NCBI GenBank assembly: GCA_034620365.1
Contig: JAQGEQ010000071.1
Location: forward strand, 5,332,001-5,396,000
DNA length: 64,000 bases
From: Pegea sp. RAD2-039
Taxonomy: Eukaryota; Chordata; Thaliacea; Salpida; Salpidae
Direction of reading: 5' to 3'
The notes beneath the pieces are model-generated. The model made no database searches. It was not told the DNA's origin and saw only the letters and a program-made list of their open reading frames with translations. Numbering within the stretch: the first letter of the stretch is position 1; the number at the start of each line of letters is the position of its first letter. This document shows, one piece after another, positions 8,942-41,091 of this stretch. The position numbers and the translations under genes are program-made.

Positions 8942-11900
8942 ATGGAAAGAAATATCAAAAATATTAAGATTAAAAAGGCTTCTGCTGGGCTAGGACTTAA
9001 ACTAGTTGGTGGTCTATCTAAAGAAGGACATTTTGATGGAATCTATGTAAGAGACATCATTTCTGGAGGAGCTGTTGATCAAAATCAATGTCTTCAGATT
9101 GGTGATCAACTTATTGCTGTTAATGACATCACAGTGGAGAACTTTTCTCTATCAAGGTTTCAGATAAATTCTTTCAAATATTCATCATTTACAGTTAATA
9201 ATTAAAATTAAAAAATTGGTTTTAATTGAGTTTTAGTCATAGACTCATTCTAAATTATTTATATTGAATTTTTTAAATTAATCAATTAGCTTTTATTGTT
9301 ATTGTATCATGAAATAGCTTTCGTGAATTTTATAGAAATCAATTTGTCATCTTAGTATAATTTTAATTAAGCTAAACAAGCTCAAATTACATTATGCTCT
9401 TTTGTGGTGCATAAAAATAATAAATAACAAATAAATTAACTTTATCTAACTCACTCATAATATCATTCAAAATGCTAAAACTCTTAAAGTTTTTATATTT
9501 AATAAGATTATTTTATATCAAGTTTTTTTAATTAAGTTATATTTCAAATTTCTTTTCTGAATTTTTGATTTATTTTTAGAGCTGTAAACTTTTTAAGGAG
9601 AGCTTCCTTTAATGATTGTGTTCATTTAACTATTTCTTCAGATCAAGTTGCCAAGTAAGTTTACTTTTATTAAACTCTTGGCTTCAGATAACAAATTATA
9701 AAGTTCTTATAGCAAACACAAACTGAACATAGAAAAGAGAAAGTGTTTCAGTTTGATAAAAGTAAACATCAAAACAATTAGTATGACACAGTTGAAAATA
9801 AAGCAAATTAATAAAAAACTTTTACAATCTAATATGTTGTGAGTTGAAAACTGTAATAAATGTTTAAAATAATTTTATAAATTTAAGTTCAGTTTTAAAA
9901 AATACATTTTTCTGTTTGAATATTCACTAAACTCAAAATTAATTTTGATCAATTGTAAAGAAAAGGATTTCAAGAACAAATGAAGATTCATCATTCAATC
10001 AAAAGCAGAAGTTGTTCACTTGGTACCTCACAATTCAATACTTTCTTCTTTATTCAATAAACAGAAGATTTTTCAGATTCAGCAAAATCGATTTCAGAAC
10101 AAAGGATTCAGTCACAAGATTCGATTGAAAATCAAGTATCAATTGATAAAACCACCGCAGGACTCGGTTTAAGATTTGAAGAAATCAAATTTTTAACTGA
10201 CTACCAATTTTCAAGTAAAAAATTTGAAATAAATTTATAATTTTTATTGGTGAAATACTGAAATTTTTGTAGTTCCTCTTCTTCGTGTTTCTACATTATC
10301 ACCTAATGGAGATGTAGCACGTGAAGGAAGCATTAAGATTGGTGATTACTTGACTGCTATCAACCATCAAAGTGTAATTGGTTGCCTTACTCTTGTACAA
10401 GTTCATTCTCTGCTACTACGAGAAAAACTGCGAGTTACCACCAGGTGCTAAAAATAGATTTGAATAATTGAGTGTATCTGATCATATAATTGTTTTTTAA
10501 TATTTTAATAATTTATTGAATATTATTTATTTAATTATCTCAAGATAATATTATTTAAACTGTTTAAAATATAAATAAATAAAATTGAACTACAAATAAA
10601 TATTTTGAAATATATATTTTTTTCATTTCAAACTTGTCTAGTGTGGTTTTTTCTTACATTCATCACAATACTCCTTTACATGAAGTTGGGAACTTCCACC
10701 TGATGAGGATTATTGCAGGGAAGCACACAGATAAATTCCCTCAAATAGGTGAATGTTAACGGTGCAAGCAAGCTGTTAAAATTGATTTTATTCTTTATGC
10801 TCAGAACGTTTTGTAACTTGCCAAAAAAAAGAAAGCGAATCTGCTGATGAAAAGGTAAGGTTTCAATTTCATCAAAATTTCTTCACAAAAAACTTGTTAA
10901 AATTTGTTGCTGTTTTATTTTAATTATTTTGTAAAGATGCATAATGAATCCAATGAAAAAGAAACATCAAAAGATTTGGAAGAAAATCCAAGAAGAAAAA
11001 ATGTAAAAAACAAATTCCTTTTGCCATCAACAACCCGAATTCAGGTTAAACTTTGAAACATTCAATTTTCTGCTTTTCGATTTAAATGATTAAATAAACT
11101 TTTAAGATATTCAATAATTTATATAAAAATCAAATTATCTTTATTTCTTTTTCGACAGTTAGGAAAGTTTGAAGAAAGTTTGTCAAATTTGCAAATCAAT
11201 CTACCTGAAGAGAAGCTGAAAAGATTTCGACAATGTCTTGAAACTGATGCCGATAACACATCTAGTTATCAGGGTAAGACTCGGCTAGCCCTCCTCTGAT
11301 AAATCTTTTAATTTTTTACTTCTAGAGTTTATCTCAGTTTTTTTGGACTTATTTGCAAATGAGCTTTTGAATGAGAAGAAAAAAATTGAAGATAAAACAG
11401 ATCTTGATTTAGAAAATATCAGTAGTGACTTGAAGTATAGTCTGCTTGAAGAGGTTTGTTTGTCGGTAAAGAAAGTCTGTCTCGTAAAAAGTAAACATTT
11501 CCAAATAAGGAAATATCGCGGTTGAATTCGAAAATAGATGAAATGAAACGAAAGAACGAAATATTAATGAAAGAACTTGACAAAAATTATGAACTTCAAA
11601 GTAAAAACGAAAAAGAAGTGAATAATGCTCAACAAAATTATAGAGATGAACTCAATCAAATGAGAAATGATTATGATGAAGTGATCAGGTAATCTTTGTG
11701 TCTTCAACTTCAACATCTATTGACTCCTCTTCTTTAGAGGATTGGAAAATGAGTTGGTTAATCATAAGAACGGAAATCTCCCTTATTTGAATAATGGAAA
11801 GAAGTTGACGATGAGATTGGAAGAATTGAATCAAATTCGTTTAAATCATGAAGAAAAAGTTGAAAAGCTGCTTGTATTCATCAACAAAATCGTTCAATCA

Positions 11901-12806: not shown

Positions 12807-14209
12807 TCTTCCTTTATTTTCAGATCTTCTATTGGTACTTTTGCAGTTTGTAATTTTTCTATTTTCTATCATGTCCTATATCTTTCCACGAATCGATTTT
12901 TATTTTTAACTTGTCTTGCTAGCTTTATTTATTACTTTCCCCCCGTCCAAACCTTTTGCAGTCATCAGTAGAAATATCTTTCAAATTCTTGTCAGCTTTT
13001 TATCATTTGTTATAAACATTTCTTGCACAGCTAAAAAAATCTTTCCATTTACAAATTTCTGTCTATAAATCCTGACAAATGATTTAAAATCGATTTCAAG
13101 TGAACCTTCTGAAACTCTAAACTGACCTTTACATTGTGTGGGTAGTCTGTTTGTGTCTATGAATATTTCAATAAATTTTTAAATGTCTTGTGACATTCAA
13201 AGGTTGTGAAAGACCTAAGTACTTTTGTTTGCCTTTATATGATTGTAATATCAATTACTAAAATGTTTGTACTCTCAACTATTTAAACTTCTAATTAAAA
13301 CTGGTTTTTAATTTCAGTTTAAAAATGATTTTTTTATAAATTGAAAATAAATGAAAATTGGTGAATATCGAAATTTGACCGAAAGTGTTTCCGCTTACAT
13401 TTTTTAAATTTAGTAAATTTTGATATCAGAAAAAAATCGACCTGAAATTCAGCTGAATCCATAAATAATTATCTGATATTTAAGTCACTTAGAGCAGTTA
13501 AGATTTATTTAAAACATTACACAACATAAATCTGAAGTAAAAAGTTTGTTAGCAGATGTTCGTTTAAAATCTTATAAAATAATAAAAAAAAGTTTTGAAT
13601 TAAATAAGAAATTAAATAAGTTGTCTGGAAGCCTTTCTTCAATAATTTAAATCTATTAGAAAATATGAAATTTGGTTTTCATTTAAAAAATGTGATCAGT
13701 TTCAATATTTATTAAATTTCTTTAAAGTGTTGCAAAATGAGATTTTATTAAATTTTATCTGCAAGAAATTACATTTTGTGTTTTATAATTAAGTTTTTTG
13801 ATATTTTTATTTACGTCTCTCATACTTAAAAGTTAATTTTACAAACTTATATTACAAATTTCGTGTGATCTAATTACTTGTGCATCTCACTAAGTTTGCT
13901 TCGTTTTTAACAACATCTCGTGAGTATGACCTGCGTTCTCGGCTTAAACAGGCTTTATTATTATTATTATCATATGATCCTTTTTATAATAACTTCCTGA
14001 TCTAAATTATATTTTAATTCTAGAATTGATTAAGTTTGATAAATATTAAATAAATATTTTTATAAGTTTAAAATTTTACAAATCAAAAAATAATTTAACT
14101 GAAAATAATTTTTAGTAATAAATCTTATTTTATCATAAAACAAATCTATGACAACTTAAGACAAGAGTTGAAATTAATTGGGCGGCAAACTAGAGATGGC
14201 TATTCATCA
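12807..14209. other. 3' flank of the STXBP4-like gene and AT-rich intergenic DNA
   Basis: No protein-coding signal. It contains a polyadenylation signal at 13170-13175 and a short segment at 13928-13962 that recurs in inverted orientation at 39501-39533. Confidence 0.6.
13170..13175 (+). terminator. Poly(A) signal AATAAA, STXBP4-like gene
   Basis: First canonical AATAAA after the stop codon at 12806, followed by T/G-rich sequence. Confidence 0.5.
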
Positions 14210-14458
14210 TTATTCAGAGTTCTTTTGTCTGACTTTCTCGTCGATTGCTTTAATGGGAGGTTTGGTATTTGACCGAGTGTTCCAATTACCTCTTGTATCA
14301 GTTCTTACTTTCAATTTCTCTTTACTATGGAAGTTAAATAGCCTCGATGTAAGCGGGAAATTCCACTTCCAACGTACTCCAAGCGTTCGCTTTTTTGTAA
14401 ACACAAATCTTTTGTAACAATTTTTGTTATTTTGGTGATTCGATTTAAAACACTCCAC
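14210..14458 (-). CDS. Small orphan ORF, 82 residues
   Basis: An ATG-to-stop frame with mixed codon use and clearly higher GC than the surrounding DNA. The protein is basic and tryptophan-containing (VRWKWNFPLTSRLF, RTDTRGNWNTR) and looks protein-like, not random. I do not recognise a family. No splice-linked neighbour could be placed; it could be a single-exon gene, the last exon of a longer gene, or an old gene fragment. The opposite strand is also open (14178-14417) but gives a hydrophobic sequence typical of an antisense shadow, so the minus strand is preferred. Confidence 0.4.
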   Translation of the reverse strand: MECFKSNHQNNKNCYKRFVFTKKRTLGVRWKWNFPLTSRLFNFHSKEKLKVRTDTRGNWNTRSNTKPPIKAIDEKVRQKNSE

Positions 14459-17348
14459 GAAAAGGCAACTTATATCAAAAACAAAATAGTTATTATCTTA
14501 AAAAATCACAGATTTAAATGTAAACGTTGAAATTAAATAATAATTTAATGTTTTGTTTTTGTGAAAACAACATTTTAACTTATAGATCTTTTCTCATTTT
14601 CAATGTTTAGTTCATCTTAGAACATTTGTTTATCTGTATCCTTAAAAACAAGGTCAACTTTGCATTGTTAATATTAGAAAACTTAAAAAATTTAATCTAA
14701 TATAAACCTGTTAATAAAAATACAAAATAGTATAAACATGGTAACCACAAATATTTTATTATTATATATATTCAAATAATTAACATTGTTTTCATAGAAG
14801 TTCTATATTTAGGGCTAAAAATAAACTTTTTTGTATAAATAGTTCAAGTTATAAAAAAACATTTTTTTATTTATTGGAAATATAAAACCAAAAGCTTAAG
14901 TTTAAAAAGATGTTTGTGAATTAATTAATGTCATTTGACTGATAACTTCCTTTTCAAACTTTTTGTTAATGTATTGAAAGGGAGTTTTACAAAAAGTTGT
15001 AAAAATAGAAATTCTAAAACTTTAAGGATATAACCTTAGTAGTATGAACCATAAAAATAGCTCTTGATAAAGATTTAGACCGATTCTTATTTGCCGATTG
15101 TGACTGGTGTTGATATGGTTCAGTTCTAAAGAAGAGATGCCGAAAAACGAAAGTCATAAAAAGTGTTTGGGTTTTCTGCTCAAGTACCCTCTGGAAGCCA
15201 CGCGCTCAATATCGATCCACTTATTCTATTGTTTCTACATTCACTAGAAATTTGGTATGTTACCAAAAGTTTTGTTACTACAGCTGTATTAAACGGCTGT
15301 CAGCGGATTGTAGTTCAATATAATTTGTTATTTTATTTACTAGTGGGAAGTTCATTGTTTATTAGCTGCTAGTTTAGTTAATACTGAACATCATACTTGT
15401 TATTTTATTCAAACTTTATTTTTTATTAATATATGTTGTTCTATATCTTACCTTAGTAGTTTGAGTTTATTTCTATCTAATTTTAAAACAACCAATTAAG
15501 AAATTTTGTAATTTTTATGTCAGGTTTAGATAATTTTTATCTGTAAACTTTTTAAAAACGTTTTAAATTATAAAAAGATCTGTTGCTAAAGATGGTTTTT
15601 AAAGTAATTATTTAATTTGAAAGTTAAACCATCAGCTTTCAAAATGCCAATCTATCTTTTGTTGACTGCTCTCAAAAGCAGATAGTTTGAATAGCTTTAA
15701 TTAAATCTCTTTTTAAGAACAAAAATATTTATATTTGATTTAACAATAGACAAACTTTAGAAAATAGTCTTTGATTTGTTGATAAACTATCTAATTAGAT
15801 CTTTCAATAACTGCTTAAATTCTTTTATTTCAGTTCTTATTTTAAATAAATAACTTTTTAAAAATAAAAAGTTTATGTAATCAGTATTATGTAAACTATT
15901 TAAGCCACATTTTATACATTCAAGCGTTATTTTAGTAATAACTAATGAATTTTAAATAAAAATAACAGACAAACTAATTCTGGTAATTCATGATCATATA
16001 TTTGTTAAGAGAATCTTTGAATAAAACCTTGATAATTTGTTTTTAATAAACCGGCTGTGATTTGATTATATATTTTTTAATAACTAAAAAACTATCCGTT
16101 TTTACGATTAGTAAAACTGTTTTATTTCAAATAATTAAAAATTGAAAGTTTTAAATGCAAAAGTACTAATGTAAATATTTGAAAAAATTACCTTTAAAGT
16201 CAGATTTATATCGAAAAAGAAAAAAAAAACTTTGTAATTATTTTCTTATAAATCGGGTTTTGATTATCAAATCTGATAAATTAAAAGAAGTTTGATTTTA
16301 AAGTTATTTTGAAATGCAATAAAGTATTAGCTTTATATTTACCAGTTTTAGACTTAAACCTATAGAAGTAAAGTATGTGACCTACTTGAATAAAGCTGAT
16401 GCTTGAGTAGATATTGGGTGGTCTTAGATATCTTTTTCAAAAGTAATTTCAAAGATGAAAACATGTTTAAAGGTTCAACAAGAGCCTTTCATCATAAAGT
16501 TCAATTTGTGAATCACCGTTCACCTTATGAAGGTCGTTGGTTTCTATATTGTTAGTTGTCCTTTATTCTCATTCTATTTTTATATAAATTGTAAGAATAT
16601 AATCAATTCTTTGTAACCTATAAGGTTACTCCTTTGGCATAAATGTTGTTCTTTATTTTTTATACTGAACATTTATACTTTGGAATTAAACATAATTATA
16701 AAGTTTAATGACTTCACTTTTTACTTGATATTCAATTAGTTAATTTAGATGAAAATATATTTGAAACATTAATTTAGTTTCATAGAACTTAAAAGTAAAC
16801 AATTAAACTTTGATCAAAAAATTAAGTAATAAGAATAAAACTTTCTGTTTAGTTTAAACTATTTCTGATTTTGAAAAAGTGAATATATTGAATTTTTATA
16901 AAACTTTTTTCTTCTAAATCTACAGTTGTATTGAGTCACTTAAGATCTGGAAATCTTTTCGAATATAATCCCTTACATACTTAAATTTTAAGTAGGTCTC
17001 ATCTTCAAAAAAAACTGTAATTCAAAACCATTTAATTTGTATCTGACAGAGGTTTCGGTTTTCTATATTTTTCTTTATTCTTATCAAGCTTTTGTTTTAC
17101 TTGCTTTTTACAAATAACTGATTTTTAAATCAATCAATTTTTTCCCTATTTAATTATGATATTAAGCAAATAAATTGTTATTTAAAAGCAAAAATATTAA
17201 ATGTTAGTTTCCTATATAAGTAATAATAAGATTATTTTTCGGTTTTTCGTTTCAGTTGTCTCTTTAAATCTCTAAAAAGTTTAATCTTATTTAACAAATT
17301 TATTTTTAGAGTAAATTATTGTTTAATATAAGCTGCTAGTATTATGTG
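14459..17348. other. AT-rich intergenic region
   Basis: About 2.9 kb upstream of the large plus-strand gene. Mostly low-complexity A/T. A less AT-rich patch at about 15060-15330 has short open frames in more than one frame, none with a recognisable domain. An acceptor-like TTTATTTTTAG at about 17300-17310, just upstream of the ATG at 17349, suggests a 5' UTR intron. Confidence 0.55.
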
Positions 17349-20300
17349 ATGTCAATTCACATAAAAGAGAAAATTTCTGATTGTATCTCGCACCCAAAAG
17401 AAGAAAATGGAATTGCCCTTCAACAGTATGTTCAAAACGACCAACAACCGACAGCGATGAATCATTCATACAATATTCCTGATGTGAGTTACTAAAAACC
17501 AACATTTAAAGTGTCTTTAACAGAATTATTTTTTCAGAGCCGTGAAGACAGAGAATCCACTGTAAGTAAAGAAAATTAGCTGAGAAATTTTTGTGGGTAT
17601 CAATTTTGACTCTGTATCAAAATTTTCTTCTTTTGAAACAGTACTCAAGGACATATACTTCTGATTCCAAGTACAGATGGAAAAAGCTAGAAGGGAATCT
17701 CGATTTATTTGTCATGGAACGAAATGAAAGAGTTAATTTTCTGTTTATTTCAATTTTTGATTAGAAAATTAAATATTTAATAAAGTTATATTTTATTTTA
17801 ATAAACTGAACTACACCTGATTAAGCTAAAGTTATTTTAGTCTTAAAATGACCTAAAAGGATAGAATTTAATCAAATGATAATATCAAGACACTTTTCAA
17901 AGAACTTCTTAGAGCTATTTGTGAGAATGTGTGTCAGCAAGAGGTGCTCTTTTCAGGCATTCTCTCTTGTTTATTGTTTTAAACTTTTACTAAATTATTT
18001 TGAAAGACTTTTTTATAACAATTTCAACTTTTTGTAGCACTTAACGTCTTTGCAATGGAAATGGCACAAAGCTACAAAATCAAGGAAACGTTATTCGGAT
18101 AAAGAGGAGGTAAGATCATGAGGTTAAGATTGAAATTGCTGAAAGTGAAATTTCAGCCACAGCAAAGTGACTTGAAGTTAGATAATTGTTATTCACACAC
18201 GAAATCACATATTGAAGAAAAAGATTTAAAGATAGAATCTGAGCTTCATTCTAAGCAAAGAATAGAAAAGGTATGAGGTGGTTAAATGGTGAAAGTAGAT
18301 GAGGTTGCTGGGTATCTGGATGTTCTTGTTTCTATTCGGCTCCAATTTTACAGAATTTAGAAACAAATTTTTATAAGAAATGGAAAGTTGCTGATGAACG
18401 ACAAGTTTTGAAAAATAAATCATTTGAAAAAATCCAACAAAAAAAGGTTTTGAGAACAGAATCATTTTGAAGATAATAAATTGAATATAAATCATTCATT
18501 AAAAAAAAGAAATGTTTTTTAAATATTTATTCAAAACTTTAGTAAGTTAAAAGTATAATTAAGTTAATATTTCAATAAATGTTTTGCCGCAAAATGAATC
18601 TCAATTCTTAAAAATGTTTGTTAACAAAAGTTTATTATTAAAACAGTTGTTGAGCAGTGAAGAGAGAAAAATATCAAAATCTGAAAAGGCCCATCAAATA
18701 AAAACCACTAGAGATGATCCTCATAAAAACCGGGTTAGTTTTCATAACTACCCGGAAAAATCAATCGGATCAAAACCAGAAAATCCTTTCAAACAACGAA
18801 AAAACTCAAGTCGTAAATCAAACAAAAGTTTAAATAATGAAACTTCAAAACCTCCTCCTCAATCTGTGATAGGAAGCAAAAAACAAAAAGATTTTCATCA
18901 AAACATAAGTTTCAAGAAGTCTGGAGAACACTTCTTAAATTCTAATAATTTGTTCCGCTATCAACCAGATGAGGTTTGAGGTGGTAGAGATTGGTTTTAG
19001 AGAGGCAGTAGCTTTCATGATAACACTTTTATCTGAGATAAAAGCAAAGACAATCAAGTTATAATTTCAAATTATAACTTTCAACAAAGTTTTTTTTTAC
19101 AAAACTTTGAACACAAAATTTCACAAATTATTCGAGAGGTAGTAAAACTATTTGATTATTTACAGAGACACCATTTCTTTCAAAACTCAGCTCGCTTTAA
19201 ATATCCTCGAGAACATATCTCATCGTATCCTCGCCAACAACCAAACATCAACTACATATACTCACCGGAATTTGAGAGCAAATCCCACGACTTTACTCAT
19301 CCACAACAAATCCCTGAAATGATGTATCAACATTATCGACCTTATCTCAACTCTCAAGTAAGTTCGTCCTTGAAATTCAACTTCAAAATTTTATTCTGAA
19401 TCAATCAGTTTTTAATTTTTACAATTTCTATTTTAGCATCAAGGCAGATTTGAATATGCGGATCCTTGGCTAAGTAAAACCAAACCAACTCAATATTATG
19501 ATGTAAGCAAACCTAATTTATTCAAACGAAAATTTAATTTCGCCCAAAATCGTTTTTCTTTTTGTTTTAACCTTTTTCATGCAAATAGCGACACCTAGTG
19601 GCCGGAACTCCATTCTATGATTTCCATCATGTCCGAAATCGTATGACAAGAGATAGTATGAGACGTCCGAGAATTGTAAGAGCTCTTATGGATGATATTG
19701 ATCCCAGTGTACTTATGCGGGCTCCACAAAGAGCTATGACCGCAAAACCTGCTACACACTATCTTGGTGGACCTTTATATTCCCGAAAACCAATCTTCAC
19801 TTATTCAAACGTCGCTGAGATGATGTCTTCCAGTACAGAGTCAGAAGATGAGTTTAAAGATTCTTTCCCGTCTGAGGTTGACTCCTCAGAGGCTACTGAT
19901 CAAAAACACAACATTTTGAAAGAGAGTATCATAAAGCAACCAATCAAAACAAAGATCAAATCTTCCAGTAGTTTAGGAAGAAACAAATCTGCAATGTCTT
20001 CGTCATCTACAAGAGTTAAACGAAATGAATCGATTGTTTTTATGATAGATGGTAGGAAGTGTTATCCTGGAGGATCAGTGGATGAAAGCTTCATATCAAG
20101 CTCACTAAATGAAAATAAGGTTTCAGTAAAAAATAGAATAGAAAATAATTCTAAAAATCAAAAAAGTGATAAAAGATCGATAGGGGATATCGTCGATAAA
20201 GATCTCTTTAAGACTTCTTCGGAAACAAGTTCTTTGTTTTCATCTTCTTTAGCTGTACAGAAAAGAAAATCTTCGAAGAAAAGATCTTTATTTAAAAAAA

Positions 20301-23300
20301 GTTCCAAAGACTTGAAACAAAATTTGTTTAAAAGTGGAACTTCTGAGAGCCCAAAATTAGAGTCTGTTGACAAAAACAGAACTAATCTTTTAAATAAAGA
20401 TTCAGAGAGTTCTGAAGAAGATGTGGTCTTTAAGGAAGGTCTTCCTGAAAAACTTCTGATAAATTTCGATGAGTCAAGTGATGATGAAAATGAGATTCAT
20501 GGAAATGAAGAGGAAGTTAAAGAAGAAAAGTTTTTGTTGAAAATAAAAAATCTTGCAAATGAGTTTCAGTTACCAGTTTCAAAACTTTCTGAATTATTTT
20601 CACAAAAGTTTAATAAACAACAAAATATGGAACCTCAGAAAGAAAATGTTGATGAGGACGCCGATAAAAATATTTTAGATGAAAAACTGAATGAAGAATT
20701 TGAGGCAGTTAAAAAAGATTTGATCGATTTGGAAGAAAATAAGACCTTTATCATTTCTAGCACTAGGAGTTGTTCCGAGTCTTTAGATAAAATGTTAGAA
20801 GCAAATCTTAACTCTCTTATATCAAGCAAAAAGCTAAAAAAAGAAAAAAATCAAATTGAAATATTAAAAGAGTCAATCACACAAGCTCCAAATTTGAAGG
20901 AGTCTGTTGATGAAATTGCATCAAAATTTGATAAAAACGATTCGAATGAAGATAAGAAAAACTCAGAAACCAGAGTTGATGTTAAAAATACAATTTCTGG
21001 TGGTTTTGAGGCAAATGATGATGTTATTCAAAATAGAAATAGTTTTGAAGACAAAATTGAAAATAAAAAGGAAGTAGGTGAGAGAAACGATACCAGTGAC
21101 TTGTTTACGGATGCTATGAAGAATCGAAAAGAAAAAAGTGAAGAAATCAATCTTCACTTAAATAAAGAAGAAAAAACTGTTGAAACCTCAGCTGAAAATA
21201 AGGAAGTGGAAACAAGGATAGTTGAGTCTTTCAAAGCACATTGTAACAAAAGTATTCACTTAAGTGCTATAAAAGAAAGCAACTTTAAAGAAGAAAATGA
21301 AGTTTTACCATCTCAAAAAGGAGAAGCCAAACCACAAAAAAAGGTTAACGTAAATGCCTTTATAGAAACACTCAGTTTAGACGTCATAAACTTGGAAACA
21401 ATTAGCTGTACCAATCACACAACCGAAGCAATCATTTAACATTTCCTTTCAATGAATTCGTAAACGAGTTTATTAAAGTTAAATCTTTGATTTTTAACTT
21501 ATTAGATTTAGAATATTTTCAAATTGTTTTTTTCGTTTTGATTCAAATTAGATTTGAAATTGAAATTTGAACTTTTTCAATTTACAGCAATTTGAAAAAT
21601 GTAATCTTGTTCGTACCACCAACCGCTTGATTAGACAGCAGAATGAGGTTGGTGCTAGCATCACTTAGGATAAGATCAAAACAAACAGATCTTATCATTT
21701 CAAAATAAATTTAAGATTTATTGATTTTTAAGAAGATGTAGTTTTGATTTCATCTTCATTTTAGACTGAAAAGCAACTTTATGATATGCGTCAACTTCTA
21801 AAAGTGGAACTCGATGAACAAGACGATTCTTGTGAAAGAGATGAACGGACTCAAGAACGGATCGATGATCTTGAAAAACAGATTCATAGTTTGGATCATA
21901 AACTAGAAAAAATTAATCTTGAAATACAGGACTCACGAATGAATTCTCAACAGCAGAGTGTAAGTCCTAAAAGTTCAGTTTTTATTTCTTACTCATCTGC
22001 TGGCTTACAGGTTGGTTCATTGGATAGTAGAGGAACTTATGCCAATACTCCTCTGTTTATTGTAGGACCTCATCGCGGAATAATGGAGGTTTGACTTTTG
22101 AAGATTCAAAAATCAAATTTGAATTACAAATTTTTATTTGAGATTTGTTTGAAATATTTTTGATAATAATTATCAAATTATTTAAGTTTCTTTTTTTAAA
22201 TAATATTTGATGGTATTTAAAATACTAATTGAAATATATTTTGAAAGTCTAAAAGTTTTGGTTTTCACTTCAACTAGAGTAATTTTATTTCTGATTCTTG
22301 AACAAGCTTCCAAAAACTGTTTTTATTTTCTTAAAGTAAAATGTAATCAAAAACTATAGTTTAAAAAAATGAAAAATTCAATGATTTGAGTTTGTATTTA
22401 ATATGTTAATTTAAAATTTTAAAAATAATTAAAAGTAAATGAAAAGGTTCACTTTAACACACAGCAATGATAATAACTCATCATGAGAGGTTTATTCTGA
22501 CATAAAATAATCACAACCACAAAAGTAAATAACGATAAACACAAAAAAAAAACTTATATATAAGTAGAACGTGAATGATTGCGTTCGAATGACATTTATA
22601 TATGCGGTAAAATAATCTTTTATTATACAGTTTAAACCACGCAGACTTAATTTTTTTATGATCACTATAGACGATACCATATGAAGAAGAAGATGAGGAA
22701 GATGAAAACGAGGAGGACTTTTACAATGATCAGACTTCTGCTTATGGGACATTTGATCATGTCGAAAGTGCTTTAGAAGAAACTAAGATTCAACAAGAGG
22801 AACTTAAGGTTTAAATTCCTTAATTTGAAGTCTGTTTCTGAGTCTTAGAACTGAACTTATGAAACGTGCCAGCTAACAATACTTGAAGAAATAGTTTTAC
22901 ATTTAAACTGTTTAAGTTTTGAAATAATTCTTTTTTTAAAGCATGAATTGCAAGTTCAAATGATGAATTTAAAAGCTGAATTAGAAAAGCAGTTAGCTAC
23001 TCAAATATCTGTCGCTGAGCCTGAAAACGATGAAGTAAGTTTAATCAATTTGGACGAAAATGGCTTAAAATATTTTATGCTAAAACAAAATTCTATTTCT
23101 TGTTGTTTTATATAAACTATATTAAAAACAAGTAAACGCAATTTAAAAAAGCATTTTGAATTTTATTAACAAAATAACTGATTTTTCAAACTGTTCAGGT
23201 AATGAACGCTAGAGTTACAAACTTAGAAAAACAAATTGAAGAAATGCAGAAGCAGATAAAACAAGCTGATGAAAAAATTGCAGAAACAGATTTACAAAAA

Positions 23301-26300
23301 CAAAAGCTTCGAACAAAAGTAAAGTTTCAAGACTTCCTCTTAGCTCTTATTGTGTTTATATATAAATCAAAATAGTTGTTTAATATAAAATAGTTTACAA
23401 AAGAACTCAAGTGTTCAATAACACTTGTATTATATTTTATGATAATATTTTATTTGTAATAATTTTTATGGTTACGTTTAGACGACAAATAAAAGGTCTT
23501 CACATAAACCTGTAGCAAAAAGTCCTAGTCACGCCAGTGAAAAAGATTCAGTCCACTCAAAGCCCCAAATATCAGCAAGTCCAGTACATAAGAGATTAAT
23601 CGCAAAAACCAGGTAAAAATAGAATATATAAATAAATAACTTCAAAAATGAATTTTTAAATCAGCTCAAAAGTAACTCCAGCGCCTGAAAGGAAACAAGC
23701 GACTGAGTTAGCTGCAAATTCGATTAAAAGCTGCAGAACTAATGGAAAAAACAACAAAGAAATTAAAGAGAGATTCGAAGAGATTAATGAGGTAAAAGAA
23801 ATTATAGAAAATAATATGACGATGTGGTTAATTGTAGCAATGTTATCTTATATCATAAGAAAAATGAAATAAATTATTATTTCACTTAAAAAAGTTGTTA
23901 ATTTAGAAATAAAATTCAATCTAATCAAAAAATAAATATATAAAACTAAGTTTGTAGATTTGTTTTTGAAACTGTTTTTAATAAAATCAGTATTCTATAA
24001 CTGTTTATGCTTTATGACTTTAAGATAATTGCAGGATTTGTTTTCAAGAAGTTGTTGTTTAATTCTAAAGTATAAGATTAGCTTTTTTATCATAAATACT
24101 TACTTCTGTTGTTCGAAATTCTGACCGAATATTTCAGCGTTGATAATAAACTTTAATCTTATATTTTAAATTAATCAAATATTGCTTAGTTTATTTGTAT
24201 ACCTTGACTATGAATGAGTTCTTTTAGAATGCTCGATCTGAACCAACTTCAAGTTCAAATACCAAATGTGATTCTATTGTAAAACATTTGTCTCAAATTT
24301 CGATTGGTAAAAATAACATCAGTTCTGAAGAAGCAAAAATTATCTCTAAAAATAAAAAGGTTGAAATTTCAGAGGAAAATAAACAGAAAGTTAATAAACA
24401 AGCTGAAAATATAAATCTAAAAAATGTTGAAAAATCTGCTAAAATAAAAGAAGCAAAGATTACTGAAAGTTTAACAGATACCAAGAAAGATAAAAATCAA
24501 AAAAATGAAGATCAAGTAAAAAGATGTTTAAAAAATAATAAAGTTTTGGAACTTTCTGAAAATTTACTGAAACTTACTTCATCTAAAGAAGAAGAAAAAA
24601 TTTCAAAGTCTTCAAATGAAAGCTCTTCAAACAGAAGTGAAAATCTTTCACAAAATGATGAATCAAATAAAGATAAAAAAGAAGTCAATAAAACCATAAA
24701 AAATATAAACGAAACAAATTGTTCTGGTTTAGAAACATCCAATCATCTTTCAAAGAAAAAGTCAATCAAGCAGTCAGATGATACATCCAGCTGGAAGAGC
24801 GAGAGTGGAAGAAGAACAGAGAAGTTACAAACATTAGAATCAATTTTGACTGAAGCCAACCAACTTTCATTACAAATAGAAAATATTAGAGAAGAAAAAA
24901 CCAATGAAAGTATCACAAAGGAATCAACTCTGGATGCTGAAAGTAAAAGTGTGAAAAGTGAAGAGCAAATACAAGAAGATAAGAATTTAGATTTTGTAAA
25001 AATAACAGAAGAAATTGAATTTGAGAATAACTGCGAAGATGAAGTTAGATCATTTGCTGACAAGCCAGAAGATCACTCCATTGAACTTCCTTCAAAAACG
25101 GATTTTCATGAAAAGCTTTGTGACAAAAATGAAGCAAAAAATAAATCAGAAAATAAACAAATTGAATGCTTAAATGAAGAAGTTGATGAAGATCAATCAA
25201 CAGATCTAAAAGTAGATAGTCTTCTACAAAATAAATCAGATGTACATATCAAAGAAGAGAATAAAATATCTGAAAATATATGTTCCTCTTTTAACCAAAA
25301 CACAGAACTTGCAAAAGATACAAATAACAAAAATAGCGAACTACTTATTACATCTTTTAAAAAAGATCGTTCTTTCATCGTTTTAATGGACGATGATGAC
25401 TTTAATATAGAGATTGAAGATTCTTTTTCACATCATTCTAATGATCTTGAAAATATGAAAACTGCAAACTCTGGATATAAGCAAGTTGATGTTACTAGAA
25501 ACCTTGATTATAATTCTGATGGTTCTTATGTAATTGATGGTAAAGTTACTAAGTGGAAAGGAAAAAGTGACGACTTAGGAAGCAACAATATTCAGTATTT
25601 GCCAAAAAAGATGAATGTTTTAGAAAATGAATCAGAAACAAACTCGCCAAAGAAAATTGAGATTCTCTCAAAGCCAAAAAGAGAGAATTTATCCAAAATT
25701 TCCTCAAATTTCAATAAAAGATTAAAAAATTTATCTGAACCAAATAAAGGAAATTTAAATGAAAAAGTGAACGATAAGAAAGTTGGGTTTTGTGAAAATG
25801 TAAAAGTGAAAGAGCGGGCTTTTAAGAAGCTTCAAGAAAGTACATCTAAAGATAAATATGAGTTACTCGATAAACTTAAGTCGCTAAAACAAGATATTGA
25901 AAAGTCAAAAATCAATAATTCACTTTCATTTGATTTCAAACAATCAGACAAATCAGTTACTTTACAAAAACAAACCAACAAAAAAAGCAAAAAATTAAAC
26001 ATGTTAAAATCAAAAGACATCAGTTCTGATTTCTCTGAAAAAACTAACCAACAAGATGAAGCCTCATCAGTAGAAGAAGTTGATTTAAAAGAACAACCAG
26101 CAAAAGTAGAGATAAGTTCAAATGCAAAACAAGAAAGCAGTAAATGGAAACTTTGGTTTTCAAAGAATTCTAAACCCAAGGTTTGTTTCAAAAGTTTTTT
26201 TAATAAACTTTTTAGTGTAAGACCCAACAAATGTATTTCAACAAAATATCATTCTAATTTGTTTATGTTTCTTTACAGGTAAACCATTTAGTAGTTTCAC

Positions 26301-28212
26301 CGCAAAAAATTGTGGAAAATGAAAAAGCTACCAACAGAAAAAGTAATAATTCACCTCGGATATTTCTAGAAGAAAACAAATTTGAAAGTCAAAAAAAGTC
26401 TAAAAGCTTACTAAGTGTTTTTAAATCAGTAACAAAAAGCTTCAGTTTGAATTCCAAGTCATCAGAAGGTGTTAAAACTAACAAAGTTTCACCTTTAACA
26501 CAAGAAACATCAGATAAAAAGTCAAACAACTGCGTAGAAGGTGATATAGAAACTACACAGGAAAATAAGAGGGTAATCAAATGTAAGGTGGCGGTGATGG
26601 AAACAGCTTCATTAAATCATTTTATCAAATATTGATTTAGCTATATTTGAAAACCAATCAAAAAACTTAGTTTTATAATTTTATAGAATTGAAATTACTA
26701 ATTTATTATCTTTCAGAGTAAAGTTGCAAACTCCGCCAGCAATTCTAAATGCTTTTCAATTTCAACAGCAAAATCTAAAGTCAAAGTAAATACAGAAATA
26801 TACTTTTGCTTCATGTATTGTCTTAAACTATTTTGAAGAGTGAAATATCGAGCGTAAACAACAAGCAAAAAGTTTCATCAATTTCAACATCAAAAACCAA
26901 GCACAAAGTAAACTAAAATCTCTAAACTATTAGTATCATTAAATTTATTTTAGGTTTTTACTTTGAAGAAGATTCTAATATTTCATTTGATGAAGTTAAC
27001 TTTGTTTAAACGCTTAGATAGTTGTTGATTGAAATTATGTTAAATGTTTTATCAGGTATCAACACCAATAAGTAAAAGTAGCCGAAAAAATTCCAAACAA
27101 TCTCCAATAACTAATGAAGAGGTATAAATGTTTAAACTCTGTCGCTAGATACATGTAAAGCTGATGATTAAACTAATTAGAATTGAGATAATTTCTGAGA
27201 AGCTATAAATATTTTACAAACTAATTTTGATTTTCAGTCAAAAACACATAACAGTGTTTCCATGCCCAATTCGCATAAAATTATTTCACTTTCAAGTCAT
27301 TCTCAAAATAATCAGCAAGAAAAGCTTTCAACTAGCGACAAGTCTTCATTAAAAGAAAACAGATTAATATCCGAAGAAGGAGATGAAGACGATGAAGAAG
27401 TCTGTGAAACACTTTCTAAGTTCAATCTTTTAAAAAACTAATTTAATTTACAGAAAGAAAATCAGCTAGAAGATGATATAAGCATCATTGAGGAGGTATG
27501 AATCAAATTATTATCTGAAAACCTTTTGAAAATTTTTATTTTAAATACTTCTTTATTTTTAACCATCTAAACTATTTTTAAAGCCGGAATGTGAGACATC
27601 AAATAATCCAACAAAACGAGACTTCAAGGCCTTCTTCAATTTCAAGGGATTTGCTTTTAAAAGGTAAATTGCTTCTGAAATATTCGAATTGATCTTAAAG
27701 TTTATTGAATTGTAACTCGTTGTAGAAAGCAAAGAAGAAAAAGTATTTTGCACGGCATGGGCTCGAAGTGGTGTGCTTGTCCAAGCTTCTTGTGGAAGTA
27801 TCTTGGCGATGAAAGTGATGAAGAGATAGTCACAAGACGTAAATGTATTTCACTGATACTAGGAATCATCTTGATTCTCCTTCTACTCGCGATTGTCATC
27901 AGCCTTGTCATTGGACTTCGTAAGTTTATTTTTTTAAAATAAATATTATTATAACTATTAACTCAGTAACTTTATAGAAAATACTTGATACATAATTAAC
28001 ATTCTATTAATTAAAGTTATATTTATATTATTTATTTCATATTTCTAGAAATGAAACATGAACAGACTATCTACTCTAAAATTCTTAATTTGTTACTAGT
28101 TAACGATGAAATCTAAAATGTTTATAATTGTGCAGGAACCGAAGAAGAACCACCTCCAAAACCAACTGAATCGCCTCTGCAGTTCACTGTACTAAGTGCC
28201 GATGAAAGATAG
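17349..28212 (+). CDS. Large charged coiled-coil protein with C-terminal membrane helix, family unknown
   Basis: I do not recognise this gene. Exons: 17349-17483, 17538-17561, 17642-17731, 18038-18109, 18157-18270, 18354-18446, 18647-18973, 19166-19357, 19437-19502, 19589-21343, 21588-21647, 21765-21959, 22011-22088, 22671-22808, 22942-23034, 23199-23318, 23482-23612, 23665-23791, 24228-26180, 26279-26572, 26717-26785, 26839-26907, 27056-27121, 27238-27399, 27454-27495, 27584-27663, 27726-27919, 28136-28212. They sum to 2271 residues with every junction in frame, and 24 of 27 introns are phase 0. The protein is rich in Lys, Glu and Ser and probably mostly disordered. Coiled-coil-like segments lie near residues 957-1041 and 1114-1184. 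A basic stretch (RRKSILHGMG) precedes one hydrophobic helix at about 2222-2246, then a 25-residue proline-rich tail. It is thus a membrane-anchored protein with a huge N-terminal, presumably cytoplasmic, domain. Reading past the exon 10 donor (AAG/GTTAAC) reaches a stop at 21439, giving a 987-residue form with no anchor. It may be one gene or two fused by my splice choice there. Structure confidence is moderate; function is unknown. Confidence 0.7.
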
Positions 28213-28596
28213 AATTTAAGAAGTAGATCTACTTGCAACTAGTTTAAGTTATTTTTGTATTTAGTGATTTTTCTTTGCATTCAATATTTGTAACTACATG
28301 CTTTGAAGTAAGAGATCCGGTTTATTGTAAAAGTTCTATTTTTTTTTATGTTGAAAGCTTTTCTTTATAATATATTTGAGGAATATTATTTCGAAGCTAT
28401 TTTTCTAATTTTATTTTTAAAATTTTTTCTAAACTTGGGTTAGAAAATTTTTTGAAGTTAATCATCTGTCCATTTGAAACGTTTTTCTTTCATTTATCTG
28501 ATGCTGAAGATATCGTAAAGCTGTAAATTATATCTACCTCTTCAAGATGACAAAATTTCTATTTTTTTCATTTTTTCAAGAATTCTTTTCAATTCA

Positions 28597-28612
28597 AATA
28601 AACTTTAATAAA
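28597..28612 (+). terminator. Two tandem poly(A) signals for the large plus-strand gene
   Basis: AATAAA occurs at 28597-28602 and again at 28607-28612, about 390 bp after the stop codon at 28212. Confidence 0.5.
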
Positions 28613-28653
28613 AAACTCAAATACTAATAGATAGAAGTTTTTGAAACAAAGAA

Positions 28654-28659
28654 TTTATT
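28654..28659 (-). terminator. Poly(A) signal, GTF3C2
   Basis: TTTATT on the plus strand is AATAAA on the minus strand, 88 bp past the GTF3C2 stop codon. Confidence 0.5.
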
Positions 28660-28746
28660 TTTCAAATACTTAGAAGAGAGTTTAAAAAAATTAATTCAGT
28701 TCTACAAAATTAACTATAACTTAAAATGAAAAAAAGTAGTTAAATA

Positions 28747-36064: not shown

Positions 36065-37759
36065 TCAGTAAAATAATAAATTACAATCCCACATGTTAAG
36101 AGGTTCATTGTGATGAAAAGTACTTTGATTAATATTTCCACCAACCAGTAAAAGCTGAGTTGAGCTCTTGGAGAATTTTTCTTCACAATTTCTATCAAAT
36201 GTTTCAATAGATTGTGAATTTGAAAATATTTTACTGATCGATTGTAGCTTTTCAGCATTTTCATATAAAGCAGATATACTTTTGTTTGGTAGTTTTGCAA
36301 GGTTCTCTTCATGGTTAGAATTTTCACTACTTGAAACCATTACTTTGCTTTCTATATCCTCTGGCAAATCAATAAATGATGTAGTCTCAAGATTTGTTGG
36401 TTTTTCTTGATGTGATAGGTTCCAGGTTTGTTGGAAAGGTGATAGATTATAAGAGTAATGATTAACAGTTTGAATTCGATAAAGTTTTTTATCAGAAACA
36501 GACCAGTCTAAATGATCTCCATTTTCAAACTTAATTGCATTTTTATTAGCAATTATATCTTGATGTTTTGCATTTAAAAAGTCATTTGCAAATAAAGATG
36601 ATTTTATTTTACTCTGCAAGTTTTCCTTATAATTAAAGTCACCAGTTTCTTGTGGAACTAAAAATGTTTTCTGATAAGTTGGGGAGGGTTCTTCACAAAC
36701 ATAAGATTCATTACAATTTTCATATGAAGAGGGTTCTAATTCATTTTTATGTGAGGTGATTTTGGAAGAGTTTTCTAATATAAGATGTTGATTTTCTAGC
36801 ATATTAGGGGGTGGATTAAAACAGTTATCAGATAAAGCAATGAGACAATGACCAGACATTGGGGACGGATGGACATGTCCTGTAGGACCACAAATAGTCC
36901 AAATATTATTCTGTGAAAATGCATTTGAAACTTTCCAGAGTTTCGAACAAGAAAATCCATCTTCTCGCTTTCCACCAAAGATAAATATTTCTTCATTCAC
37001 ACAAACAGCAGCATGACCAAATAGTTGAGAAGGTTTATTTTTACTTTTTATAACACACCAAATTTTAGCTATAAAGTTCCAAGTCCAAGTCTGATTTAAA
37101 TTCTTATTAGTAACACCCATTAATCCCCCACAAATCCATAAAAGATTTTCCCTGACAATACCAACATGCTTATATCTTGGTTGAGGGCAGGGTTCTATTA
37201 ATGATTCATCAATATGGCTCCATTGGTTTTTTAAGAAATTATATTTCCAAAACTCCTTTAAGGACCCTTTCAAGTCAACATACCCTCCATGTACATACAT
37301 ACAATTGTTATAGATAAAACTAATATGATCAAGTCTACCTAAGGGATAGACTTCATTGTCTGGGTTTGATAATTTTTTCCAAGTTTGGTTTGATGGATCA
37401 AATACCCATAAGGGAATTTCACCAGCACTAGCAAAGCTTAATTCTCCGCCAAATATATAAAGTTTCTTTTCAAAAACAATCATTGTATGCCCTTTTAAAG
37501 GAGGGGGTTTATCACCAACTGAATTAATTTTAATCCAACATTTTGAAAGAAAATCATATTTCCATAAATCTTGTTCAATACCTTTATGACTTCGACCACC
37601 ATGGACATATAAACAATCATCATAGACACATGTAGCATGTTCACTTCTATGAGACGGACTTATTCCTATGGATGGCAAAGGGTTCCAAACTGAAGAATTT
37701 ATCATTGGCATTATTACCATCAAAGATTTTGGCGTAAAACATCCCTTTAAAATTCTCAT
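36065..37759 (-). CDS. Kelch-repeat beta-propeller protein
   Basis: Single-exon gene, 564 residues from the ATG at 37759; the frame opens a few codons upstream but without another ATG. Kelch repeats with the diagnostic double glycine and spaced W occur in order: YVHGGR near residue 52, then YIFGGE, YVHGGY, WICGGL and IFIFGGK, each followed by a W-x-Y/F-x motif such as LWKYDF or FWKYNF. This is enough for a six-bladed propeller if the extreme C-terminus (LLLVGGN, then MWDCNLLFY) closes the ring. Between the fifth repeat and the end lie about 230 polar, poorly conserved residues. Kelch propellers are protein-binding platforms, often adaptors. Without BTB or other domains I cannot choose an orthologue; stand-alone kelch proteins of the RABEPK or KLHDC type are the nearest in architecture. 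Confidence 0.82.
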   Translation of the reverse strand: MRILKGCFTPKSLMVIMPMINSSVWNPLPSIGISPSHRSEHATCVYDDCLYVHGGRSHKGIEQDLWKYDFLSKCWIKINSVGDKPPPLKGHTMIVFEKKLYIFGGELSFASAGEIPLWVFDPSNQTWKKLSNPDNEVYPLGRLDHISFIYNNCMYVHGGYVDLKGSLKEFWKYNFLKNQWSHIDESLIEPCPQPRYKHVGIVRENLLWICGGLMGVTNKNLNQTWTWNFIAKIWCVIKSKNKPSQLFGHAAVCVNEEIFIFGGKREDGFSCSKLWKVSNAFSQNNIWTICGPTGHVHPSPMSGHCLIALSDNCFNPPPNMLENQHLILENSSKITSHKNELEPSSYENCNESYVCEEPSPTYQKTFLVPQETGDFNYKENLQSKIKSSLFANDFLNAKHQDIIANKNAIKFENGDHLDWSVSDKKLYRIQTVNHYSYNLSPFQQTWNLSHQEKPTNLETTSFIDLPEDIESKVMVSSSENSNHEENLAKLPNKSISALYENAEKLQSISKIFSNSQSIETFDRNCEEKFSKSSTQLLLVGGNINQSTFHHNEPLNMWDCNLLFY

Positions 37760-40700
37760 TACATGCACAAATGCATCTTAAATTAAAACTAAATATAAAA
37801 AAAGTAAGTTAATACCTTAAATGTTCATCTATAAATAAAAACAGGTTAGGGTTAGGTTTAAATCAAAATTTATTTGTTTAGAACTGATAGTTATTTAGAT
37901 TAATGCTAAGAATCGAAGTTATTAAAAATTTTATAATAATGACTTGATCTCGCCGGGAATGGACATGCTAAAAGTCAGTGCAGAAATTAGGAGCTGGATT
38001 CTACTCTCTATGCTAAAAAGGTATTCAACAGAACAGACAGACTGATGCAGCTACGCCCAGCTGGCATCACAGGATCTAACATAACAACACTGGGTACTAT
38101 AACAAACTGTCTATGAGGTTCTGAACATAAGACGGTTAATTAAAGTTAATTATTTATAAAAATAAAGTTTTTTAAAAACATGAAATTCATAACAATGTAA
38201 ATAAAAGAGCATTCTAATATAATTATTATCAAATGGAAATATATAAGCAATTGAATAAATCTTTAAAGTATTACAAAATGGTTATCATTTTAATCAGATT
38301 TAGTTTTGTTAATCACCTGGTATTATATAAGTTTTATGGACATTAATCAAAATGATTATAAAAAATATTTCAAATTTATTTATTTAAATTCAAACTAATA
38401 TTACCAGTTTTATGCTTGAACAAAAATAATTAATAAAACTATTCTTACACTATTTACTAGATTATAAATATCAATACTAAAACAACTTAAAAATGTTTGA
38501 AAAATGATTTAAAGAAACTAAAAAAAGTTTAAAAAACATCAGAATAATGCAACACAGAAAAACACATTTGACAATCTGTTAACAGAGAAGTTTAAAAAAC
38601 TGAAAAAAAATAAATATTTTATAATTAGCTCACTCCTTTTAAACAGATTTCTAAATGAGACAATTAAATAAAAAAAGTTTCCACTTAGATTACAAACTAA
38701 AGGTTTGCTGTTGCGTAATGTTTACTGTTAAAACTTTAATACCAAAGTTTTGTTTTATATTAAAACTTATTGTTTTATACATCAATTAAACAAATAATCT
38801 AACTAAATTTTAAAATAAAATCTTGTAAGCATATTATCATAAAGAAATTAAATCATCAATTAAGAACTTTGTATAAATAGATAGAAAGACCTTCAACTAT
38901 TGTGTAGGGTATAAAGTTACCATGACTAAAGAAACTATTAAGTAAACAAACATAAGCAAATTACTACAGTTTCTTTAAAGCAAATTATTCGTAATTTCCT
39001 ACGACCAAATTAGTCAATGATTTTTTATTTGTTATTTGTGGTATTTAGTAAAACTTAATGATGGTATTCGGAATAGAATTAATCATAGAACCAAAATGAA
39101 GTGAAACTAAAATTATTAATTAAAGCTTCTGATTATCCTCAAAAATGTATATAATACTACCTCAATTAAATGGGACTTAATAAAAACTTTAAAAACAAAT
39201 AAAAATTATTATTCAGAAATATGATTCAGTTTTTATATTTTTTAAATCACAATCGTCTTAAAATATTGTCTGTAAAGTCATAATTTAAAGAATAAGATCA
39301 GAGATTTAAAAGCAAAAAGACAGTTAGAGAACTTATAGTAGGTGCAAAAGTAAACAAATAAATTAGTAAATAATTTGAAAGTTTGCCAAAAATCTAGCAT
39401 AGGATGTAATCAAAAAAAGTTATCGCTCATTTGAATAATTAAGAAGCTTAATTAAGCAAATCATTTTTTCTGCCAAATTTATTCTTTAGATATACTAATA
39501 TTAATAAGGCATGCTTAGGCCGAGAACGGTCGTGTTGAAATTAATCGACAATATTTCGTCTTTAAATTTACATTACAGCGTTTTGCTAATTCTAAACTAG
39601 ATGAGAGCTTTTTTTGCGTGGGATAATCTAATATTGTAACTTTGGCTGATAATAATTTGATGTTTTAAATGTATGAAACTTATTTTTAACCTCTTCATAC
39701 CGTCGAATGCAATAAAAGCGATATCAACAAGAACCTCTAAAATAATAACAAATTATTAAGGCCTTTTTGAAAAAGCTTTATTTGTATTGTAGTCACTTTA
39801 TTGTATACATCCTGAAAAAGCAAATTTTATGATTTGTTTTATAAATTAGTGACAAAGATTGCATAACTGTATTTAGAATAGCTTACTGTGACTTTTATTT
39901 TAGTTCAAATTTCTAAATCAATAGATCTGTCAGAATATTTTAAAATCTCAAATCTAAGTATCAAAATACGAGAATATAGATTTTAACAAATAATTTTACT
40001 TTTCCTATATACCACCCCCTCCTTTTAATAATTCTAATAATTATTAAATTGCAGTTAACCCACAAACAAGCTCTCCTTTTTAAGGTTAATTTTAAATATT
40101 ATAAATTACTTTTAAAGTACCATTAATTATTAAAATTAAATTAACAATTTATGCAAAACATGTAAACTAATTATTTAAATCTATATTATTCTAAAAAGGG
40201 AAATTTTAACTGCATATATCTAAGGAAATTTGTTCTATATACACATTTTTTTATATTTTTAATCTTTTTAAGTTAATTCTCTCTCAATATATTTTATTAA
40301 CTTAAAAAAAGTCATTTGTACATCTCTATAATCTTTTTATCCGTAAAATCTTTTCTAACGTAAAAAATTGCTGACATTTAAAAAAATATTTTTATAAACT
40401 ATAGAATAAAAAAAATATATTTAATGCTTTCTTTAAATTAGGAAAAATAAGAAATAGTCTGTTTGATGAAAATAATTTTGAATAAGAATAATTTAACATA
40501 CTATATTATAAAAATTATAAGGTTTATGTTTTTTCTTAATTTAGAAGTAATAAATATTTTTGAAAGTTATTTATTAGAAACTAATAATGTATATTCCTTA
40601 TAAATTAAATACTTTTGTAATTTTGTGTTTTAAAAAAATTTTGTTTCGTAATCGGTGAAGTACCTTTTATTTAAAATATTTGAACTAAATAAAGCATCAG

Positions 40701-41091
40701 ATACTATTTCTTAGTATTTCAAACTTTTTTATTTGTAATAAGCATTTTTTCTGTTTTATTTATTTATTTATTCAATTGATTTTATAAACTTACACAAATA
40801 TAGTGAATTAAATGAATTAATTTATTTAATTTAAAATATTTTAATTCAAATATTATTATAAATATCAGTTTTCTAATTTTTGAAATTTTTTTAACATTAT
40901 TTTTTTATAAAATATTGAAAGTTAGATAAAATTCTAAGAATTTAAATATTCTATAAAATTATCATTTTTCAATTTCTATTTTAAAAACTTACAAAGTTTC
41001 CAACTTTAAAAAATTTTTTTCGTAATCAGTTTGAATATTTATTGTTAAATTTATTTAATAAAATTCGAAATTATTTATAGAATTAAATATT
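37760..41091. other. Intergenic region between divergent kelch gene and MCM9
   Basis: Very AT-rich apart from an island at 37941-38130 (see below) and a short segment at 39501-39533 matching 13928-13962 in inverted orientation. A two-copy TTAGGG run at 37844-37858 is too short to mean anything. No gene is recognised. Confidence 0.6.
37941..38130. other. GC-richer island with a hairpin, nature unknown
   Basis: A stretch near 45% GC in otherwise roughly 25% GC DNA. TGATGCAGCT (38043-38052) pairs with AGCTGGCATCA (38059-38069), one base bulged, around the loop ACGCCC. One plus frame is open for about 35 codons from 37941 but has no recognisable domain. It may be a transposon remnant, a structured RNA gene or a promoter element. 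Confidence 0.4.

Follow-up and report, generated by a model that had tools for sequence, protein, structure and literature searches.

Two described systems offer a measure for the gene considered here. The KASH proteins (nesprin, Klarsicht) combine a large, presumed cytosolic body with one transmembrane (TM) helix near the C-terminus and a short conserved tail, and MARCKS carries basic residues mixed with phenylalanines and serines by the membrane. Both likenesses appear in the predicted product of a locus in the salp Pegea sp. RAD2-039, which we analysed within a stretch of 64,000 nucleotides (nt) of contig JAQGEQ010000071.1 (positions 5332001-5396000), hereafter the window. The window is AT-rich (GC 19-37% per 2-kb step), carries animal genes and belongs to a 105.7-Mb genome of 387 contigs. 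The locus, at 17349-28212 on the plus strand, is, on comparison with a relative, a single gene of which the genome showed no further copy, and its whole coding span comprises 28 exons and 2270 amino acids (aa). We give a probability of about one half to the reading that it is a single-copy tunicate gene for a single-pass, C-terminally anchored scaffold whose arm length is set by splicing.

The coding chain and its relative

An exon-chain gene finder, run on positions 14000-28700, recovered one coding chain on the plus strand from the ATG at 17349 to a stop codon ending at 28212, initially with 27 exons between the same ends. Its training for codon content, splice-site weights and intron lengths drew on 264 kb made up of the window and its surroundings, with long open frames and the loci of eight kinases as seeds; the training set thus contained the region under study. 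The sense chain scored 455.4 and the best antisense chain 14.1, while 40 dinucleotide shuffles scored 10.0 at most, with a longest chain of 222 codons; the coding chain at 17349-28212 is far beyond chance. A heavier gene penalty, with the stretch extended to 31600, lets the chain run on into the neighbouring gene, and a lighter penalty lets it fall into pieces. The original prediction had described a 28-exon chain closing in frame to 2271 residues. Its ends were recovered exactly by the finder, the count came to 28 exons once the model had been amended with the relative described below, and the final model is very probably identical with the one drawn originally. The figure of 2271 holds for codons with the stop, which the prediction had apparently counted, leaving 2270 residues.

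A protein search with exons 11-16 (final numbering), together with a doubtful 13-aa exon and a 51-nt stretch, returned a sole match at E <= 1 (E 5.9e-50) among 5866 candidates from 5.77 billion proteins. This relative, P0121 (674 aa, on a 2385-nt contig, sources jgi and lgn), shows 49% identity over 93% of the searched region. The search requires shared exact 5-residue words and restricts candidate lengths, and a divergent ascidian orthologue could be missed by it; a further search with residues 240-440 of the first model gave 91 candidates, none of which scored. In a gap-lenient alignment with the whole window protein, 355 of the 638 aligned residues are identical. P0121 has counterparts of exons 3-4 and 8-9 near its N-terminus, followed by a hairpin, a long helix and a basic linker, and then by a juxtamembrane segment, TM helix and tail. 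Searched back against the genome, it gave eight matches at E <= 1, all of them collinear and all at this locus, and no second genomic copy was found when the TM region and the aromatic block were searched separately, which yielded one unrelated match (E 3.08). Because P0121 matches both the N-terminal and the membrane-anchor exons, the locus is one gene. That it would belong to no recognised family had been guessed at the outset, and a single relative at E <= 1 in 5.77 billion proteins comes close to that guess.

Comparison with P0121 also settled parts of the gene model. Exon 3 (17642-17731), skipped in the first model, was added thanks to P0121, with which 21 of its 30 residues are identical, and on this comparison we regard it as real. 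The 51-nt intron at 21960-22010 would be open in frame if retained, but P0121 has a gap where the 17 extra residues would stand; it is probably a real intron, and introns in the region are often very short (5th percentile 47 nt, 25th percentile 52 nt). The 13-residue candidate exon at 22568-22606 was present in the first model and was dropped from the final one for weakness, P0121 holding about 10 dissimilar residues there that speak neither for nor against it. Splice-site scores in the final model have medians of 4.4 for donors and 4.6 for acceptors, values matched by 3.8% of the GT sites (n = 521) and 10.0% of the AG sites (n = 532) in the background. Weak sites flank exon 3 (2.0 and 2.2); the donor of exon 27 (1.5) is weak too, as are the acceptors of exon 7 and exon 10, which both score 1.0. 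Just upstream of the start codon there are strong acceptor-like sites at 17256 (5.3) and 17310 (5.6), which could be a 5' untranslated-region intron or a trans-splice site.

If exon 10 is read on into the following sequence (21344-21439), a stop codon is met after 93 nt whose coding score is a neutral 0.12. Windows scoring as low as this make up 1.8% of 617 coding windows, which come from genes also used in training the finder, 73.7% of 559 intergenic stop-free windows and 10 of 14 intronic stop-free windows. Because the read-through scores as non-coding, it is read as intron and exon 10 is most likely spliced onward.

Predicted modules and phase-0 exons

The full form of 2270 residues would be one possible product and not necessarily the sole one, given that P0121 has only 674. 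Its composition (K 13.3%, S 13.0%, E 11.1%) bears out the richness in Lys, Glu and Ser proposed at the outset, and by charge-hydropathy 12 of 14 blocks class as disordered, predicted helical blocks among them. An AlphaFold2 model of P0121, with four window exons as extra alignment rows, has a mean pLDDT (predicted local distance difference test) of 58 and contains helices at residues 42-80, 166-207, 213-249 and 299-398, a TM helix at 616-652 and two short helices. Helices 166-207 and 213-249 form an antiparallel hairpin with block-mean pLDDT of 87-98 (residues 171-250), and window exon 12 alone, modelled with no alignment, gave two helices and a turn at mean pLDDT 88.8. Where two coiled-coil zones had been claimed, the helical character stood and the form changed: the first zone is predicted to be an antiparallel helical hairpin and the second one long helix. 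Heptad scores in P0121 exceed the best of 20 shuffles in four partly overlapping stretches. Both proteins have one hydrophobic segment and two basic-aromatic stretches, one near the N-terminus and one beside the TM helix (2159-2206 in the window protein, 561-612 in P0121); basic-aromatic windows number 42 in P0121 against a shuffle maximum of 31. Conserved sequence links the two proteins at the hairpin, the long helix, the basic-aromatic patch, the TM helix and the tail. Combined with the structure models, these comparisons point to a conserved core made of an N-terminal basic helix, the antiparallel hairpin, the long helix, the basic-aromatic patch, a 25-residue TM helix and an outer tail of 17 residues.

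All exons lie on the plus strand. Exon 1 (17349-17483, aa 1-45) carries the start codon and is followed by exon 2 (17538-17561), exon 3 and exon 4 (18038-18109), a conserved basic-aromatic segment with 16 of 24 residues identical to P0121. Exons 5-7 (18157-18270, 18378-18446 and 18647-18973) are bounded by phase-0 introns and align with P0121 in 4 of 170 residues, and the aromatic-rich exons 8-9 (19166-19357 and 19437-19502) are conserved, with 26 identities in 60 aligned residues for the first and 14 in 21 for the second. Exon 10 (19589-21343) is a disordered mega-exon of 585 aa, phase 0 at both ends, of which 8 residues align. The predicted hairpin is encoded by the well-conserved exons 11 (21588-21647, with 10 identities in 15 aligned residues) and 12 (21765-21959, with 40 in 57). 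After exon 13 (22011-22088), exons 14-16 (22671-22808, 22942-23034 and 23199-23318) encode an acidic stretch and then the long helix or coiled coil, and exons 17-18 (23482-23612 and 23665-23791) a basic linker. Exon 19 (24228-26180) is the second disordered mega-exon, with 651 aa and phase 0 at both ends; 97 of its residues align weakly with P0121, whose weak counterpart covers its start, and it holds three in-frame internal donor-like sites scoring at least 4. Both mega-exons are charge-balanced and aromatic-poor. Exons 20-22 (26279-26593, 26717-26785 and 26839-26907) and 23-25 (27056-27121, 27238-27399 and 27454-27495) together align with P0121 in 4 of 241 residues. Exons 21 and 22 are 69 nt each; with 42 of these bases and 9 of their 23 residues identical, they suggest a possible tandem exon duplication.

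The anchor is encoded by the last three exons. Exon 26 (27584-27663) holds the first part of the basic-aromatic juxtamembrane patch, and exon 27 (27726-27919) the juxtamembrane segment with the TM helix, 43 of 64 residues being identical in P0121. The hydrophobic helix expected near 2222-2246 is borne out as a predicted TM helix, and its core of 25 uncharged residues can be placed at 2221-2245 (27844-27918). Exon 28 (28136-28212) adds the outer or lumenal tail of 25 residues and the stop codon, with 12 of 21 aligned residues identical; five prolines justify its earlier description as short and proline-rich. The tail motif KPTE-[SA]-PLQF-x-V is common to both proteins, which end in SADER (window protein) and AAEGT (P0121).

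Of the 27 introns in this gene, 24 are phase 0; for the other predicted genes the figure is 172 of 357 (Fisher p 2.2e-5). Exons 5-7, 10, 19 and 20-25 are phase 0 at both ends, and exons 5-7, exon 10, most of exon 19 and exons 20-25 are those without a convincing counterpart in P0121. Omitting exons 5-7, 10 and 19-24 keeps the frame open and leaves 637 aa, near the 674 of P0121, which either lacks these exons in its gene or represents a short splice form.

Proposed role and competing readings

In the reading that we prefer, the RRK that stands before the TM helix would have the large N-terminal body face the cytosol, with the tail of 25 residues on the outer side. The basic-aromatic patch, together with conserved cysteines, would lie close against the inner leaflet of a membrane that is probably the plasma membrane, a choice favoured by the length of the TM core (25 residues) and by the basic patch adjoining it. 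Both features are generally taken as plasma-membrane signs. The helical modules may oligomerise or bind a cytosolic partner, and the conserved tail may bind a partner outside. The phase-0-flanked exons, the mega-exons of 585 and 651 aa included, would be included or skipped in frame, and the arm on one anchor could thus vary from roughly 640 to 2270 residues, and with it the reach of the protein and its docking sites. A scaffold is the role that the architecture makes most likely. The original prediction had thought of a clade-specific membrane scaffold, and its first half is upheld in so far as restriction to tunicates, or to one tunicate branch, is likely, ascidian proteins being present in the database; its second half is suggested by the architecture. 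A more specific picture, in which a tunicate-restricted, splice-adjustable tether carries cortical arms of about 640 to 2270 residues and its outer peptide is tied to the tunic or a neighbouring cell, is speculative and rather improbable.

Several observations weigh against the preferred reading. More than half of the P0121 model (359 of 674 residues) has pLDDT below 50. In the window protein a single stretch, 1136-1165, has a heptad score above that of all 20 shuffles, and the protein's 31 basic-aromatic windows lie within the shuffle range (maximum 39). TM length and basic patch, on which the plasma-membrane placement rests, are both weak arguments. The phase-0 excess is not unique and is common to another large predicted gene nearby (33 of 41 introns), and isoform switching is deduced from another organism's protein, whose gene may simply lack the extra exons. 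If the price of a second gene is left aside, a split at the stop codon following exon 10 lowers the score by only 1.5, and cuts at some other junctions (e.g. 17800, 21700 and 22815) raise it by 2 to 4; the gene finder alone therefore does not force one gene, and joining rests on P0121.

Of the competing explanations, the one that survives best is that the protein belongs, in strongly diverged form, to an animal family that is widespread but here beyond the reach of sequence search, which we consider unlikely while granting it a real chance. Tunicates evolve fast, and the demands of the protein search for exact 5-residue words and limited candidate length work in its favour. Against it, Pfam gave no credible match either for pieces covering all 28 exons or for P0121, and no PDB sequence matched the coil region or P0121 at E <= 0.2. 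The sole score above a cut-off, for Cob_adeno_trans (25.3 bits against a cut-off of 24; 11 in P0121), was rejected as a coiled-coil artefact. These searches agree with the original view that there is no catalytic or named domain, and no clear match to a known scaffold family emerged from them. The SNARE motif (PF05739), which in SNARE proteins adjoins a C-terminal TM helix, found no match in the coil region at E <= 10 or in P0121 at E <= 1; a syntaxin-like open reading frame of the window does match this profile.

Doubtful, too, is an endomembrane or nuclear-envelope tether, with the TM helix in the endoplasmic reticulum or outer nuclear membrane and the tail binding a lumenal partner in a KASH-SUN-like manner. 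It would share the topology of large presumed cytosolic body, one TM helix and short conserved tail, and the genome does have SUN-domain exons, with two matches on one contig (C249; L040 and L041). However, the C-terminal pieces gave no hit to the KASH profile (PF10541), whether at E <= 10 or at E <= 1, and the two matches obtained in the whole genome at E <= 1, on C24 (38.9 bits) and, below threshold, on C259, both lie away from this locus. The genuine KASH C-terminus on C24 (111858-112028; L038 1369-1674) ends in PPPI, and the genome thus appears to keep its own nuclear-envelope linker parts, KASH and SUN. The tails of the window protein and P0121, by contrast, lack the terminal PPPX that serves in SUN binding. 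With its profile unmatched and the real KASH of the genome elsewhere, the KASH candidate was rejected; by membership the window protein is not KASH, and it could still act via a lumenal partner.

We are similarly hesitant about the proposal that the same anchored protein uses its mega-exons purely as an entropic spacer with no docking, in a specialised cell such as a muscle, ciliated or epidermal one. Charge balance, scarcity of aromatics and the absence of a convincing P0121 counterpart of the mega-exons are consistent with it, and equally so with the preferred reading. By far the weakest alternative is a pair of genes, possibly in an operon with trans-splicing, as tunicates have operons resolved in this way, with a soluble disordered gene A at 17349-21439 and an anchored coiled-coil gene B at about 21786-28212: the left (200.5) and right (259.4) chains nearly equal the single chain (461.4), yet the read-through that gene A needs to reach its stop does not look coding, and P0121, which unites counterparts of exons 3, 4, 8 and 9 with those of exons 11-18 and 26-28 within 674 aa, largely refutes it.

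The surrounding sequence and known systems

Elsewhere in the window, Pfam identified reading frames for PDZ (8942-9202), MCM (41062-43778) and SNARE (60194-60580) on the plus strand and for kelch (36068-37777) on the minus strand. A LIM-domain-binding gene occupies a single exon at 53757-54845. Its best named matches are the tunicates Ciona (58%), Phallusia (58%) and Clavelina (55%) and, further down the ranking, Styela (51%), and two further proteins are closer, at 74 and 76%. A tree of 22 rows joins it to P0001, P0002 and, on a long branch, P0013 (100/100), Phallusia and Ciona being the nearest named rows by path, and the gene thus marks the host as a tunicate. On the minus strand, 62675-63949 is a strongly charged, probably coiled-coil single-exon frame of 425 aa with no Pfam match. 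About 42-58 kb before the window start on the same contig (C1, L023-L024) lies a predicted coiled-coil frame of near-identical short repeats with a motif resembling EVTSLKDQMTLMTSQL; its neighbour is a 42-exon chain in which 33 of 41 introns are phase 0. On two other contigs, C75 and C265, protein-kinase matches are clustered with the whole domain in one open frame, and are intronless there.

Returning to the anchored scaffold proposed for 17349-28212, searches of open-access papers, on proteins of this sort and on tunicate genomes, turned up nothing describing it. The likeness to MARCKS stops at the basic-aromatic patch, which looks similar to the effector segment with which MARCKS binds acidic lipid: neither the window protein (MSIH) nor P0121 (MSSP) has the N-terminal Met-Gly myristoylation site, and the window protein, unlike MARCKS, is predicted to be TM-anchored with helical modules. 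Golgins and other C-terminally anchored tethers have a long coiled coil and a TM helix that anchors them in the Golgi or endoplasmic reticulum; in the window protein helical modules and a TM helix are predicted, and no family profile exceeded its cut-off apart from the coiled-coil artefact. In shape the hairpin resembles the antiparallel coiled coil of Kif21A (PDB 5nfd), with a Foldseek target TM of 0.76 across 78 columns; with E 0.43 and 20% identity this is a generic helical arrangement and no sign of kinship, and the PDB structural matches of the hairpin are generic as a whole. We therefore regard the locus as encoding a putative new family, with no Pfam entry, within a familiar kind, that of anchored, partly disordered coiled-coil scaffolds. 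Because lineage-restricted disordered scaffolds are common, we find this useful rather than startling: it would enlarge the membrane-anchored coiled-coil scaffolds by a Pfam-less family with clear testable modules, from the closest animal relatives of the vertebrates, and mega-exon switching, if true, would provide a natural test of how disordered arm length tunes a membrane scaffold.

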